From Gemmatimonadota bacterium (GTDB lineage: Bacteria > Gemmatimonadota > Gemmatimonadetes > Longimicrobiales > Gaopeijiaceae): a DNA stretch of 39,750 nt. The stretch covers positions 1 through 39,750 of the forward strand of contig JAAXGI010000006.1 of the NCBI GenBank assembly GCA_012267505.1, given 5' to 3'. Below the pieces are notes generated by a model, which made no database searches, was not told the origin of the DNA, and saw only the letters and a list, made by a program, of their open reading frames with translations. Shown one piece after another: positions 27,863-38,183 of the stretch (position 1 is its first letter; the number at the start of each line of letters is the position of its first letter). Position numbers and translations under genes: made by a program.

Positions 27863-28221
27863 CATCCCTCCTTCGCATCGATTGCCGCGGGACGCGGCCG
27901 CATCCGGGACCAAGGGCCGGGCCCCGCGCCAGGTACCCCGCCTCTCCCGCCAGAGGCGATACTGCGCCTCCCGCCACCCCCGAGCAAGGCGCGCCAGTGC
28001 CGGCAAGAGGTGGGCCCGGGACGGGCGGGACACCCCGGACGGGCGGACGACCACCGTCCGGCCGCCCGTTCGCCCGAGTGGCGCCGGAGCCTTCCTTGCA
28101 GGGGGCAGGACGGCCCGGCATTATCGACCCACCCGGCTCCAGTACAGTACGGTGGACTCCGGGCCAACCGCCTCCGGGGTCCCGATCTTCCCCGAGGCCA
28201 CTCCTGTCATCTGGTCCTGCC
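27863..28221. other. Divergent intergenic region between lipocalin-like and tannase-type genes
   Basis: The 359 bp contain no recognised gene. AGTACAGTAC (28141-28150) is a short imperfect palindrome with a TACAGT that could be a -10 box for the plus-strand esterase, but a matching -35 is unclear. Confidence 0.35.
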
Positions 28222-29868
28222 ATGCCCCGATCCGTCATCGCCTCGATTCTCGCCGTCGTTCTCGGCGCGCTGCTACCGGCCTCCCTGGACGCCCAGCTGC
28301 CCCCGGACGGTCCGGGGGGCGCCTGCGCGTCGCTCACGGGAATGGCCAACCTCACGATCACCGCCGCCGAGATCAGGGATCCGGACAGCGGCGGGCTCCC
28401 GTACTGCTATGCGCGGGGCATCCTTCCTCCGGCCATCGGCTTCCACATGCAGCTGCCCCTCCCGGACCAATGGAACGGCCGCTTCCTCAAATGGGGCGAC
28501 GGGGGCAAGGACGGCGACCTGGACTTCGCTGACCACCGGGTTGCGGAAGGGTACGCGGTCGCCAACAGCAACATGGGACATGACAGCGGAGCGGAGCCCG
28601 GGTCCTCCTTCGCCTTCCACAACCGGCAGGCCGAAATCGACTTCGGGTACCGAGCCGTCCACCTGACAGTCGTCGCGGCCAAGGAGATCATCGAGACGTA
28701 CTACGGAGAGCCCCCGGAGTACTCGTACTTCGAGGGATGCTCGACGGGTGGACGGGAGGGGCTGATGGAGGCGCAACGCTATCCGTACGATTTCGACGGG
28801 ATCATCGCAGGCGCGCCCGCCCACCACTACCAGGAGCTGAACGCCGCGCGGACCTGGCTTCTCCAGAAGATGTACATGGACGGATTTGCCGGGTCCCTCT
28901 CATTCGATACGGATGGGGACGGACTCCCGGACAGCCCGCTTGTGGTCGAGCGGATCGCGGAGGCTGTCCTCGAGAAGTGTGACGCGATCGACGGGATCAC
29001 GGACGGCGTGATCGACAACCCCCCCGCGTGCGACTTCGACCCGGACCGGGATCTCGCTGAGATGATGTGCGCGGGTGACGTGGGCGGGGAGAGCTGCCTG
29101 ACCACCCTGCAGCTCCGGCATGTTAGGGACTTCTACTCCGGCCCCTACGACAGCTACGGGATCTCCGTCTATCCGGGCCACACGCTAGGGTCCGAACCCG
29201 AGTGGGCGAGGCTCTACGTGCCGCACGCCGGAAACCGGTACGCCGCGGGCGCGCTCGGGATCACCGGCGACCACCTGAACTACCTCTTCTACGAGAACGA
29301 CCCCGGAGTGCCGCTGCCCGACCTCGCGGACCTCGGCCTGAAGCCCGATCCGACACGGACGCCTCCGGAGTGGGCGTGGTGGCAGTTCGACATCGACGAC
29401 GTCACACGCGGGGAAGGCGACCTGATGATGGGCATCACGGACGCGACCGACCCCGAACTCGGCCGGTTCCTCCTCGGAAACGACGGCAAGCTGATCCTCT
29501 ACCACGGGTGGTCGGACGGTCTGATCGTGCCCGGCCCGACGATCGGCTACTACGAGGCGATGGTCGAGACGACCTTCGGCGGGGATCTCGACGCGGCCCG
29601 GGAGCGGGCGCGCCTCTTCCTCATGCCGGGGATGGGACACTGCGCCGGCGGTCCCGGGCCGAACACCTGGGACCGGCTGCCACCCCTCGTGGAGTGGGTC
29701 GAGAGGGGCGTCGCACCGGACGCGATCATCGCGACGCACAGCACGGACGGGGTGATCGACAACGAACGGCCGATCTACCCGTACCCCGACCAGGCGGTCT
29801 ATACGGGCCCGGCCGGAGGAGAGAACGACCCGGCGAACTGGGTGGCCGAGAACTTCAGCCGCCGCTGA
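28222..29868 (+). CDS. Secreted tannase/feruloyl esterase-family hydrolase
   Basis: The product is 548 aa from the ATG at 28222, with a signal peptide (ASILAVVLGALLPASLDAQ). The family CS-D-HC arrangement is visible: the nucleophile elbow EGCSTGGREGLMEAQRYP with Cys173-Ser174, a catalytic Asp in LYHGWSDGLIVPG, and His-Cys in MPGMGHCAGGPG; the two Cys normally form a disulfide holding the triad. The lid region contains a calcium-loop-like DTDGDGLPDSP (about 230-239), consistent with the bound Ca of this family. It should hydrolyse aromatic esters (feruloyl, galloyl, or aromatic diester types) outside the cytoplasm. No dedicated aromatic degradation genes are adjacent. Confidence 0.93.
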   Translation: MPRSVIASILAVVLGALLPASLDAQLPPDGPGGACASLTGMANLTITAAEIRDPDSGGLPYCYARGILPPAIGFHMQLPLPDQWNGRFLKWGDGGKDGDLDFADHRVAEGYAVANSNMGHDSGAEPGSSFAFHNRQAEIDFGYRAVHLTVVAAKEIIETYYGEPPEYSYFEGCSTGGREGLMEAQRYPYDFDGIIAGAPAHHYQELNAARTWLLQKMYMDGFAGSLSFDTDGDGLPDSPLVVERIAEAVLEKCDAIDGITDGVIDNPPACDFDPDRDLAEMMCAGDVGGESCLTTLQLRHVRDFYSGPYDSYGISVYPGHTLGSEPEWARLYVPHAGNRYAAGALGITGDHLNYLFYENDPGVPLPDLADLGLKPDPTRTPPEWAWWQFDIDDVTRGEGDLMMGITDATDPELGRFLLGNDGKLILYHGWSDGLIVPGPTIGYYEAMVETTFGGDLDAARERARLFLMPGMGHCAGGPGPNTWDRLPPLVEWVERGVAPDAIIATHSTDGVIDNERPIYPYPDQAVYTGPAGGENDPANWVAENFSRR

Positions 29869-31455: not shown

Positions 31456-32238
31456 ATGAGAAGCATCCGCGCGGCCTTACTCGCGGCGATCTTCGCTCCA
31501 GCGGTTCTCGCAGTTGCCGGACCTGCCGCCGGGGCACAGAACCCCTTCACGAGCCCGGAGGACATCCAGCTGGGAAGACAGCTCTACGAGCTGGACTGCG
31601 CCAACTGTCACGGAGGGGACGCCCGGGGGGGGCGGGGTCCCGATCTTACCCGCGGCACCTTCCGTCACGCGACGAACGACGAACAGCTCTTCCAAGTCGT
31701 GCGGTTCGGGATTCCGGGGACCGAGATGCCGAGACGCGTGCGAACAGATCCCCGCGCCTGGCGGGTCGTCGCATACCTCCGCTCCCTCGGCAGCGATGGC
31801 GAGATTCCGCCGGGAGATCCGCAACGCGGCCGGGAGATCTTCTTCGGATCGGGCACATGCAGCACCTGCCACGTCGTGGACGGGCAAGGAACCATGCAGG
31901 GCCCCGACCTCACGACAATCGGCTACCAGCGGTCCCTGGACCACCTCCGGACCTCGCTCCTGGAGCCGGACTCCGAGCTGGATCCGCGCTGGTGGGGCGC
32001 CCAGGTGGAGACGCTCGACGGAGCGCAGGCGAGCGGTTACCTGCTCGGCAATGACCTCCACACCGTCCGGCTCCTCGACATCGAGGGCAACCTCCTCTCC
32101 TTCCCGAAAGCGAGCCTGGCCCGGTTCGAACCGGAAAAGACCTCCAGGATGCCGAGCTTCGACGGCATGCTGAGCCCCGAGGACATCGACAACATGATCG
32201 CCTACCTGGCGAGCCTGAGAGGAGAAGCGACCCAATGA
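31456..32238 (+). CDS. Diheme cytochrome c, electron acceptor of the adjacent PQQ dehydrogenase
   Basis: The product is 260 aa with a signal peptide ending near GAQNPF. Two c-type heme sites are present: Cys48-Ala-Asn-Cys-His52 and Cys135-Ser-Thr-Cys-His139. Likely distal Met ligands are in GTEMPRR (Met91) and SRMPSFDGML (Met near 230). The first domain resembles cytochromes serving alcohol dehydrogenases; the second ends in LSPEDIDNMIAYLASLRG, the usual C-terminal helix. A beta-rich insertion (WWGAQVETLDGAQASGYLL) sits between the second heme motif and its Met. Periplasmic; expected to receive electrons from PQQH2. The stop overlaps the dehydrogenase ATG (ATGA), showing tight coupling. Confidence 0.94.
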   Translation: MRSIRAALLAAIFAPAVLAVAGPAAGAQNPFTSPEDIQLGRQLYELDCANCHGGDARGGRGPDLTRGTFRHATNDEQLFQVVRFGIPGTEMPRRVRTDPRAWRVVAYLRSLGSDGEIPPGDPQRGREIFFGSGTCSTCHVVDGQGTMQGPDLTTIGYQRSLDHLRTSLLEPDSELDPRWWGAQVETLDGAQASGYLLGNDLHTVRLLDIEGNLLSFPKASLARFEPEKTSRMPSFDGMLSPEDIDNMIAYLASLRGEATQ

Positions 32239-33905
32239 GAAGGCTGACCCTGCTGCCCTGCCTGCTGTTCGCCGCCTGCGAGGTCACCGAGTCGGTCCCC
32301 GGGAGCGCGGACGCACCGGGAGCCGGCCCCGGCGTCACGGCCGGCGTGATCGGACCCGCCGGGGAACCCGTCACGGCCGAACGCCTCGTCAACGCCGCCG
32401 CGGAGCCCGAGAACTGGCTCATGTACTCCGGCGACTACACCTCGCAGCGATACAGCACGCTCGACCAGATCGACCGGACGAATGTGGCGGATCTGCGGGT
32501 AGAGTGGGTCCACCAGTTCACCACCCTCTCCCGCGTCGAGACGACGCCGATCGTCGTCGACGGCCTCATGATCATCACCGAGTCGCCGAGCAACATCATC
32601 GCGCTCGATGCCGTGACCGGGCGGCCCTTCTGGAGATACGACCACCCCGTCAACGAGGACGATCTCCGGCTCTGCTGCGGCCTGAACAACCGCGGCGTGG
32701 CCGTCCTCGGGAACCGGATCTTCCACGGCACGGTCGACGCACACCTCATGGCCCTCGATCTCAACACGGGCACTGTGCTCTGGGACGTCGAGGTGGCACG
32801 GGCAGAGGCCGGCTACAGCATCACTTCGGCGCCGCTTGTCGTCGGAGACAAGGTGATCACCGGGATGGCCGGAGGCGAGTACGGCGTCCGGGGCTTCCTG
32901 GACGCGTACGACGTCGAGACGGGGGAACTCGTCTGGCGCTACTACACGATCCCCGGGCCCGGTGAGCCTGGAAACGAGACGTGGAGCGGGGATTCGTGGA
33001 GAACGGGGGGGGCGCCCACATGGGTGACGGGATCCTACGACCCCGAACTGAACCTGATCTACTGGGGGACCGGCAATCCCGCACCGGACTGGAACGGGGA
33101 CATGCGGCTCGGGGACAACCTCTGGTCGGACGCCGTCGTGGCGGTCGATGCCGACACTGGGGAACTCGTCTGGGGATTCCAGTTCACGCCGCACGATACG
33201 CACGACTGGGACGCGATCCAGATTCCCGTGCTCGCGGACCTCGAGGTGGACGGCGTGCTGAGGAAGCTCCTCTTCTGGGCAAACCGGAACGCCTTCTACT
33301 ACGTACTCGACCGGGAAACGGGCCAGTTCCTCCACGGCGTGCCCTTCGCCGAGCAGACCTGGGCCCAAGGGCTCGACCCGAACGGACGGCCCATCCTGGT
33401 CGAGGATATGGACCCCACCGAAGACGGGGTGGTCGTCTCGCCGACGATCGGCGGAGCCACGAACTGGAACTCCCCGAGCTACAGCCGTCTCTCCGGGCTC
33501 TTCTACACCTACGCGCTCGACGGCGCGACGATCTACTACAAGCGCGACGACGAGTATGTGGAAGGGGACCAGTTCACAGGGGGCTACGGCCAGAACGCCG
33601 ATGACCCGGAGAATTTCTTCGCCGCCATCCGGGCCCTCGATCCGATGACCGGAGCGCTCCAGTGGGAGTATCCGATCGCCACGCAGGGATCGAGGCCGGG
33701 GATCCTCACGACGGCCGGCGGCCTCGTCTTCTCGGGGAGCGGGGACGGCTACATCTTCGCGCTCGACCAGGACACGGGTGAGAGCCTCTGGTACCTGAGC
33801 GTCGGCCGCGCGGTGCATGCGGCACCGATCACCTACAGCGTCGACGGACGGCAGTACATGAGCGTCGCTGCGAGCGGATCGCTCTTCACCTTCGCGCTCC
33901 CGTAG
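32235..33905 (+). CDS. PQQ-dependent alcohol dehydrogenase, lanthanide (XoxF/ExaF-like) ligand pattern
   Basis: The product is 556 aa with lipobox LLFAAC (Cys15). It is an eight-bladed quinoprotein: the opening NWLMYSGDYTSQRYS, the adjacent-cysteine ring LCCGL (Cys147-Cys148), Glu215 (GGEYGVRG), Trp263 stacking on PQQ (APTWVTG), Asn281 (GTGNPAPDW) and Arg351 (WANRNAFYYVLDR). The catalytic stretch TPHDTHDWDA gives Asp324 and, two residues on, Asp326. In calcium enzymes such as MxaF the second position is Ala; in XoxF/ExaF it is Asp, which completes lanthanide binding. So a rare-earth cofactor is predicted. It oxidises a primary alcohol or aldehyde in the periplasm, passing electrons to the cytochrome encoded 4 bp upstream. 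The substrate is unknown. Confidence 0.93.
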   Translation: MRRLTLLPCLLFAACEVTESVPGSADAPGAGPGVTAGVIGPAGEPVTAERLVNAAAEPENWLMYSGDYTSQRYSTLDQIDRTNVADLRVEWVHQFTTLSRVETTPIVVDGLMIITESPSNIIALDAVTGRPFWRYDHPVNEDDLRLCCGLNNRGVAVLGNRIFHGTVDAHLMALDLNTGTVLWDVEVARAEAGYSITSAPLVVGDKVITGMAGGEYGVRGFLDAYDVETGELVWRYYTIPGPGEPGNETWSGDSWRTGGAPTWVTGSYDPELNLIYWGTGNPAPDWNGDMRLGDNLWSDAVVAVDADTGELVWGFQFTPHDTHDWDAIQIPVLADLEVDGVLRKLLFWANRNAFYYVLDRETGQFLHGVPFAEQTWAQGLDPNGRPILVEDMDPTEDGVVVSPTIGGATNWNSPSYSRLSGLFYTYALDGATIYYKRDDEYVEGDQFTGGYGQNADDPENFFAAIRALDPMTGALQWEYPIATQGSRPGILTTAGGLVFSGSGDGYIFALDQDTGESLWYLSVGRAVHAAPITYSVDGRQYMSVAASGSLFTFALP

Positions 33906-35951: not shown

Positions 35952-38183
35952 TTGCGTGTTCGACATGGCGCATGCGATACAGTCCCGATCCCGGGAAGGC
36001 CCGGGTCGGCCCGCCGATATCCGCCTTTCGTACGATCTGCCGCCGCGACGGTCCTCGTATCCGTCCTACTCGCCGCATCGCCGCTCGCGGCGCAGGATCC
36101 GGACGCCGCGCCGGACTCGGTCGACTTCGAGCTCTCCCCGATCGAGGTCCTCGTCTCGATCCGCTCCAGGGTGTCGCCCTCCGTGGGCTCAGGAATGCCC
36201 GCCCGGATCTCGACGCTGGAGGGGACGGAGGCCAGGTCGTGGAAGCCGCGCCTCCTCGCGGATGCGATGGCGGGGCTCGCCGGAGTCTCGCTCTATGACG
36301 ACCTCGGGTCCCCCTACAAGCTGAATCTCTCCGCCCGGGGATTCACGACCGGACCCACCGTCGGTCTTCCGCCCGGCATCTCGGTGTTCGTCGACGGGAT
36401 CCGGCAGAACGAGCCATCCGCACAGGAGGTGAACTTCGATGTCCTCCCGATGGCGCACGTCGAGCGAATCGAGTTCCTGAGGGGCAACGCCTCGCTCCTC
36501 GGTCCGAACTCCCAAGGCGGAGCCGTGAACCTGATCACACGACAGGGCCGGGAAGCGAGCCGGGGCGAGGTGGAGGTCTCGGCGGGCTCCTTCGGGGCAT
36601 TCGAGGCGGGAGCGAACGCGAGCGGACAGGCGTTCGGGAACTGGGGCTACTATCTCGGCGGAGGCTACGACGATGAGGCCGGCTGGCGCGAGGCGACAGC
36701 CGGCGAGCGCTATCACGCGCTCGCCAACCTGAGCAGGGTCGCGGGGCAGAGCGGCATCCGGCTCCAAGCGCTCTGGTCAGACTCCCGGGCAGAGACCGCC
36801 GGCTCGCTGCCGGAGAGCATACTGGCCACGGATCCCCGCGTGAACTTCACGGCGGGCGACTTCGAGGCGATCGAGCTCCAGCAAGTGTCCGCCTCCGGGT
36901 ACCGGCCTCTCCTCGGAGGACGCGGATCACTCACCACCTACGTCCGGCGAACCCACGCGGAGAGGTTCAACGTGAACCAGCCGCCGGAAGAGGACGTCCG
37001 GAGCTTCGCCGAGAATCTCACCCTCGGGGGAACCGGTGACTGGGACCGCTCGTTCAGCGTCGGCAACCCGACCGTCTCGCTCCGGGCGGGCTACGACGCC
37101 GCAGCAAGCTGGACCCGGTTCCGGATCTTCGAGGAGGAGCGGGCCGGCCCGGAACGGGAGCTCACCACGGATGTCGAGAGCCCCCGGCTGGACTTCGCCG
37201 GGTACGGCATGGCCGATCTGACGGCCGGCCCGGCCACGCTCTCCGGCGGGGCACGGCTCGACTACATCCGCATCCCCTTCGAGGACATCCTGGATCCGGC
37301 CGCCGACACCGTGAACACCTTCGTGCGGCTGAGCCCCCGGGCAGGCGCGAGCATCGGCCTAGGGAACGGAGCACGGGCCTTTGGGTCCGTCGGGCTCTCC
37401 TTTCGCGCGCCCGCAATCCTCGAGCTGGCGTGTTCGGATCCCGAGGACGCCTGCCCGCTGCCCTTTGCGCTCGGGGACGATCCGCCCCTCGATCCCGTCA
37501 CGGCGACGAGCTACGAGCTCGGGGCAGGATGGGAGGCCCCCGGCGTGGGTCTCTCCGCTTCCGTCTACCGCACTGACGTCGAGGACGAGATCTTCTTCGT
37601 TCCCTCGGAGGAATCGATCGTCGAGGGATACTTCCGAAACCTGGGCTCCACCCGGCGGGCGGGAGTGGAGCTGGAGGCGAGCGCGTCACCCGCTCCCGGG
37701 ACGACGCTCACTGCCAGCTACGCCTTTACGGAAGCAACCTTCCGGGACACCGAAGAGATCTTCAGCGCGCGCGGGGATGACGACGCCGGCGACTCGCCGC
37801 TCGCCGGCGAAAACGAGGCGGTCCCCGGCGACCGGCTCCCACTCGTTCCCGCCCACCAGTTCAGGCTCGGGGCCTCCTACACGCATGCGAGCGGGGTCGG
37901 CGTCGGGTTCGATGGCCTCCATGTCGGCGAGCAGTGGTACCGGGGCGACGAGGCCAACGAAATCGAGCCCCTCGAGGGATACGTTCTCGCCAACGCCCGG
38001 CTCGACATCCCGCTCGGCGCCTGGGGCATCGGGGTGATCGTGAGGAATCTGCTCGACTCGGACAGCTCCGTCTTCGGTACCTTCAACCTGAACCAGGGAA
38101 CGGAAACACTCGAGCGGTTCCTGACGCCGGTCAACGCCCGGTCGGTGCGCTTCCTGCTCCGAAGGAGCTTCGGCACACCCTGA
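35952..38183 (+). CDS. TonB-dependent outer-membrane receptor (siderophore/vitamin type)
   Basis: The product is 743 aa from TTG. About 26 unusual residues (MRVRHGACDTVPIPG...) precede the signal peptide (RSAAATVLVSVLLAASPLAAQ). The plug domain has ADAMAGLAGVSLYDD, LNLSARGFTTGP, GISVFVDGIRQNEPS and HVERIEFLRGNASLLGPNSQ, followed by GGAVNLITRQG. The barrel carries strands such as ASGYRPLLGGRGSLTTYVRR and ends SVRFLLRRSFGTP; most receptors end in an aromatic residue, here Phe is followed by GTP. The plug-type FVDGIRQNEPSAQEVNFD is like FecA/PupA-type receptors. The ligand is unknown. Without the N-terminal regulatory domain of the receptor at 22399, it belongs to a different subfamily. Confidence 0.93.
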   Translation: MRVRHGACDTVPIPGRPGSARRYPPFVRSAAATVLVSVLLAASPLAAQDPDAAPDSVDFELSPIEVLVSIRSRVSPSVGSGMPARISTLEGTEARSWKPRLLADAMAGLAGVSLYDDLGSPYKLNLSARGFTTGPTVGLPPGISVFVDGIRQNEPSAQEVNFDVLPMAHVERIEFLRGNASLLGPNSQGGAVNLITRQGREASRGEVEVSAGSFGAFEAGANASGQAFGNWGYYLGGGYDDEAGWREATAGERYHALANLSRVAGQSGIRLQALWSDSRAETAGSLPESILATDPRVNFTAGDFEAIELQQVSASGYRPLLGGRGSLTTYVRRTHAERFNVNQPPEEDVRSFAENLTLGGTGDWDRSFSVGNPTVSLRAGYDAAASWTRFRIFEEERAGPERELTTDVESPRLDFAGYGMADLTAGPATLSGGARLDYIRIPFEDILDPAADTVNTFVRLSPRAGASIGLGNGARAFGSVGLSFRAPAILELACSDPEDACPLPFALGDDPPLDPVTATSYELGAGWEAPGVGLSASVYRTDVEDEIFFVPSEESIVEGYFRNLGSTRRAGVELEASASPAPGTTLTASYAFTEATFRDTEEIFSARGDDDAGDSPLAGENEAVPGDRLPLVPAHQFRLGASYTHASGVGVGFDGLHVGEQWYRGDEANEIEPLEGYVLANARLDIPLGAWGIGVIVRNLLDSDSSVFGTFNLNQGTETLERFLTPVNARSVRFLLRRSFGTP

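Follow-up and report, generated by a model that had tools for sequence, protein, structure and literature searches.

The window, by which we mean the whole stretch of 39,750 nucleotides analysed, carries on its forward strand a diheme cytochrome c gene followed by a gene for a PQQ-dependent alcohol dehydrogenase (P0001), the cytochrome stop and the dehydrogenase start overlapping by 4 bp (ATGA). The features considered below are as follows.

31456..32238, + strand: diheme cytochrome c, 260 aa, with CANCH at 48 and CSTCH at 135 (PF00034, PF13442, TIGR02603)
32235..33905, + strand: PQQ-dependent alcohol dehydrogenase, 556 aa (P0001), predicted lanthanide type (TIGR03075, PF01011, AlphaFold model)
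32235..32279, + strand: N-terminal signal with a possible lipobox, LFAAC (Cys15), from sequence
32673..32678, + strand: Cys147-Cys148, vicinal cysteines in CCGLNNRG, expected to form a disulfide over PQQ (alignment)
32877..32879, + strand: Glu215, predicted to bind the metal, with Gly214 before it; shares its alignment column with the Glu ligand of PedH, XoxF and MxaF
33075..33077, + strand: Asn281, predicted to bind the metal; matches the Asn ligand of PedH, XoxF and MxaF in the alignment
33201..33203, + strand: His323, where all ten reference enzymes have Trp before the catalytic Asp (site table)
33204..33212, + strand: Asp324 (catalytic base and metal ligand)-Trp325-Asp326 (predicted lanthanide-specific ligand), codons GAC TGG GAC

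P0001 scored 545.4 bits against the NCBIfam profile TIGR03075 (PQQ-dependent dehydrogenase, methanol/ethanol family), above the cut-off of 480.05 bits, and also matched Pfam PF01011; TIGR03075 was matched by 37/37 aligned clade members. Membership in this family is borne out by the site table, in which the vicinal cysteines and the PQQ-site residues are all present. Cys147-Cys148 aligns with the CC of all methanol/ethanol-type references and is invariant in the clade alignment (A1), and the aligned PQQ-site residues kept in P0001 are Glu102, Cys147-Cys148, Arg153, Thr197, Trp263, Arg351, and Asn410. The PQQ-contacting positions were assigned from the established structures of MxaF and XoxF. 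Residue 411 is Trp, the state of the ethanol-type enzyme, where XoxF and MxaF carry Gln, and this argues for multi-carbon alcohols as the probable substrate class.

The motif of interest, GACTGGGAC at 33204-33212, is in frame with the ORF at 32235-33905 (+) and encodes D324-W325-D326 within TPHDTHDWDA, which begins at residue 318. HMMER alignments place D324 and D326 at the two aspartates of PedH (D323 and D325 of 6zcv, numbered by counting from the printed alignment coordinates) and at the corresponding aspartates of XoxF. The initial annotation had placed the second Asp on the lanthanide aspartate position, where MxaF has Ala, and had called Glu215 and Asn281 conserved ligands; alignment to PedH, XoxF, and MxaF confirmed both points. 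For the site table, reference rows were PDB sequence alignments aligned with P0001, with metal types assigned from PDB titles and established knowledge. The four lanthanide references (PedH and three XoxF) have E-N-D-D at the positions of Glu215, Asn281, Asp324, and Asp326, and P0001 is identical. The five calcium references also have E-N-D, but the second Asp position is Ala in both MxaF rows, Ser in ExaA, and Thr in the two type II quinohemoproteins. Lanthanide dependence is predicted because the E-N-D-x-D set of P0001 equals that of the four lanthanide references, and none of the five calcium references has the second Asp. Where PMC8546591 and PMC11996626 treat this lanthanide-coordinating aspartate in characterised enzymes, they describe it as essential for lanthanide coordination and activity. 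Gly214 was considered as a second lanthanide marker and rejected: it separates the nine metal-typed references, yet 12 of the 19 class relatives, which all have Asp326, carry Ala there, and a characterised Nd-XoxF1 carries Asp (PMC8546591), so that as a marker it is weak.

The second Asp must be read together with the other ligands. E. coli membrane glucose dehydrogenase (mGDH) reads D-M-D where P0001 has D-W-D, with N and V in place of Glu215 and Asn281, and it is reported with Ca, Mg, Zn, or Sr (PMC11996626). The genome that holds the window (G000) encodes a large PQQ-propeller family (40 tblastn matches). Among its 20 best PQQ-type loci the second position is Asp in all but L005, a calcium-type paralog with Thr there, and only P0001 and L002 combine Asp-x-Asp with the Glu and Asn ligands. 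Because mGDH and most own-genome paralogs carry Asp-x-Asp without the other ligands, we regard Asp-x-Asp alone, common in the superfamily, as weak and insufficient evidence, and the full ligand set as the meaningful evidence.

A scan of GTDB genomes returned at least 590 relatives of P0001, of which the best 80 were examined. These share 52-78% identity with P0001 and originate from Acidobacteriota, Pseudomonadota-labelled MAGs, and one Gemmatimonadetes MAG. E-N-D-x-D was kept in all 80 of these best named relatives and in 19/19 further loci of the same class (99 in total), and likewise in 87/87 of the set examined for upstream genes. Since the pattern is invariant in the 99 relatives, the combination of Asp-x-Asp with Glu and Asn in P0001 is no chance occurrence. 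His precedes the catalytic Asp in 85 of the 99, and a close homolog is present in 45 of 198 genomes of the same class, the own genome counted. The nearest relative (L031, JAHEKL010000204.1) is 78-80% identical and has the same tight cytochrome-dehydrogenase junction. Its MAG is titled Gammaproteobacteria, a label that may be wrong because the rpoB matches in this MAG are interrupted at a position shared with the Gemmatimonadetes-like genomes.

The AlphaFold model of P0001 has a pLDDT of 86, and its best PDB match in Foldseek is PedH (6zcw; TM 0.87, 36% identity), which is also the nearest PDB sequence (3e-110). In the maximum-likelihood tree the clade of P0001 is supported at 100/99, with the own-genome paralog L002 as sister (98/95), and PedH and ExaA stand next to this group with moderate to weak support (89/64). 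PedH and ExaA form their own clade (100/100), as do XoxF and MxaF (100/100), and P0001 lies outside both; it is a member of neither the PedH/ExaF nor the XoxF group. The state of the second Asp changed at least three times among the tree rows, so the prediction is carried by the residue itself and not by clade membership.

The description of the locus as a two-gene cytochrome operon holds: the diheme cytochrome ORF runs directly into the dehydrogenase gene, and of the 85 relatives with enough upstream DNA, 76 have a homologous gene with two CxxCH motifs in front of the dehydrogenase. The upstream cytochrome is weakly MoxG-like (33 of 148 bits) and is the likely electron acceptor of P0001. In two acidobacterial loci (L109 and L110) a diheme cytochrome flanks the dehydrogenase on both sides. 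The dehydrogenase had also been called a lipoprotein. For P0001 itself this is plausible from the LFAAC lipobox, but as a family trait it was rejected: N-termini were read for 15 relatives, and a Cys near the position of Cys15 occurs in the nearest one alone (L031), most having ordinary signal peptides.

PqqC was found over cut-off in the genome, and its short contig also carries a PqqD-domain gene, which together would indicate PQQ synthesis in the host; neither PqqB nor PqqE scored over cut-off in the fragmented, 92%-complete assembly. A PqqU-like receptor, below cut-off, is located on contig C238. Near the dehydrogenase, at 35952-38183, lies a TonB-dependent receptor with weak similarity to siderophore receptors and PqqU; it was discarded as a PqqU candidate, reaching only 97 of 1200 bits when a better candidate exists on C238. 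Upstream of the gene pair, at 27997-29868, is a tannase/feruloyl esterase family protein (PF07519, 328 bits), which could be related to plant ester use.

We consider it likely that P0001 is a lanthanide-dependent PQQ alcohol dehydrogenase with a diheme cytochrome c partner, as first predicted, given the full ligand set, its conservation, PedH as nearest solved sequence and structure, and the tree. The ligand set, PQQ-site residues, and gene pairing are visible in the sequence and the fold in the model; the metal, the substrate, and the path of the electrons are deduced by analogy with PedH and XoxF. On this analogy, the two genes would encode a diheme cytochrome c and its partner, a PQQ alcohol dehydrogenase that is secreted and may be anchored in the membrane. 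The periplasmic enzyme would bind PQQ together with a lanthanide ion, for which Glu215, Asn281, Asp324, and Asp326 would serve as ligands. With Asp324 as base, a multi-carbon alcohol or aldehyde would be oxidised, and the diheme cytochrome would take up electrons from PQQH2 and deliver them to the respiratory chain.

Several observations count against the lanthanide reading. The 92%-complete genome yielded no match to the binding protein of a lanthanide ABC transporter (TIGR03863), and the 20 own-genome paralogs whose sites were read included no XoxF-like one, to which the PqqB and PqqE results add; mGDH has Asp-x-Asp, His323 is unlike all references, and Gly214 varies. The literature searched gave no clade member whose metal dependence had been measured. 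An enzyme of relaxed metal preference, using Ca2+ or Mg2+ in the cell and also accepting lanthanides, as proposed for mGDH, would be in keeping with the several metals taken by mGDH around its D-M-D (PMC11996626), with the missing lanthanide-specific uptake protein, and with His323 as uncharacterised variation. We nevertheless judge it unlikely, since P0001 has the Glu and Asn ligands absent from mGDH, and in the literature, as among the four references, characterised E-N-D-x-D enzymes of the methanol/ethanol family are lanthanide enzymes.

Far less probable is a propeller without PQQ, an "empty quinoprotein" as the name of TIGR04528 suggests. That profile is the second-best family for P0001 (533.3 bits) and matches 37/37 aligned members. 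However, its cut-off of 650 bits is not reached and that of TIGR03075 is passed, the best matches in A1 are 8.2e-169 for TIGR04528 versus 9e-179 for TIGR03075, the Cys-Cys pair and the PQQ-site residues from Glu102 to Asn410 are in place, and the genome has PqqC; we therefore rejected it on residues and score. TIGR04528 is named as non-PQQ-binding, scores near TIGR03075 on P0001, and its 37/37 matched members retain the residues for PQQ and metal; it could be worth reconsidering that name.

The host was said to be a probable Gemmatimonadota, and the rpoB tree agrees: the own genome clusters with members of its class and with the one named reference, the Gemmatimonadetes MAG that carries L035 (a fragment, L149, and row L148 gave unusable long branches). 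The accompanying statement that rare-earth use is not known from this group is refuted by earlier work. Gemmatimonadetes XoxF with the lanthanide aspartates was detected in soil proteomes in 2016 (PMC5103831), lanthanide-type XoxF in Gemmatimonadetes was reported again in 2019 (PMC6784897), and a 2024 survey of soil and granite recorded 13 XoxF3 in five Gemmatimonadetes genomes (PMC10875860). In a marine survey the lanthanide motif occurred in 61% of 6,328 PQQ dehydrogenases, and single genomes of some Acidobacteria and Pseudomonadales had as many as 70 (PMC11996626). P0001 is one ordinary member of a large, already sampled enzyme group. If the prediction is true, Gemmatimonadota gain a lanthanide enzyme that is not a XoxF methanol dehydrogenase, and the case for a wide distribution of DxD-type PQQ enzymes is strengthened. 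DxD is not to be read as a lanthanide signature where the Glu and Asn ligands are missing, as they are from most own-genome paralogs.

The members of the clade come from MAGs of Acidobacteriota, Pseudomonadota, and Gemmatimonadota; the clade is distinct from XoxF and PedH, mostly with His before the catalytic Asp. We suggest only tentatively, and with some doubt, that it is a multi-phylum lanthanide alcohol dehydrogenase clade whose uncharacterised His-Asp-Trp/Tyr-Asp site and dedicated diheme cytochrome go with a substrate and metal preference unlike those of characterised enzymes. Closest among known systems is PedH, the lanthanide-dependent ethanol dehydrogenase of Pseudomonas putida (6zcv, 6zcw), which has in common with P0001 the E-N-D-x-D ligands, Cys-Cys, the AGGE loop, the Asn-Trp pair, and the fold. 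The two are 36-37% identical and fall in separate clades, and P0001 differs in the His that precedes its catalytic Asp, a Trp in PedH, and in the dedicated gene for a diheme cytochrome that lies immediately upstream. XoxF methanol dehydrogenase (4mae, 6dam, 6oc5) shares the same four metal ligands and Cys-Cys at 30-34% identity, but P0001 lies outside the XoxF/MxaF clade, with Trp411 where XoxF has Gln. The acido-empty-quinoprotein group A (TIGR04528) is of similar length and scores strongly, yet P0001 falls below its cut-off with PQQ and metal residues intact. The DxD enzymes of Acidobacteria, Pseudomonadales, and other phyla in the ocean survey (PMC11996626) are of the same kind as P0001, and, like the XoxF3 of Gemmatimonadetes from soil and granite (PMC10875860), P0001 is a lanthanide-motif PQQ dehydrogenase, although not a XoxF.
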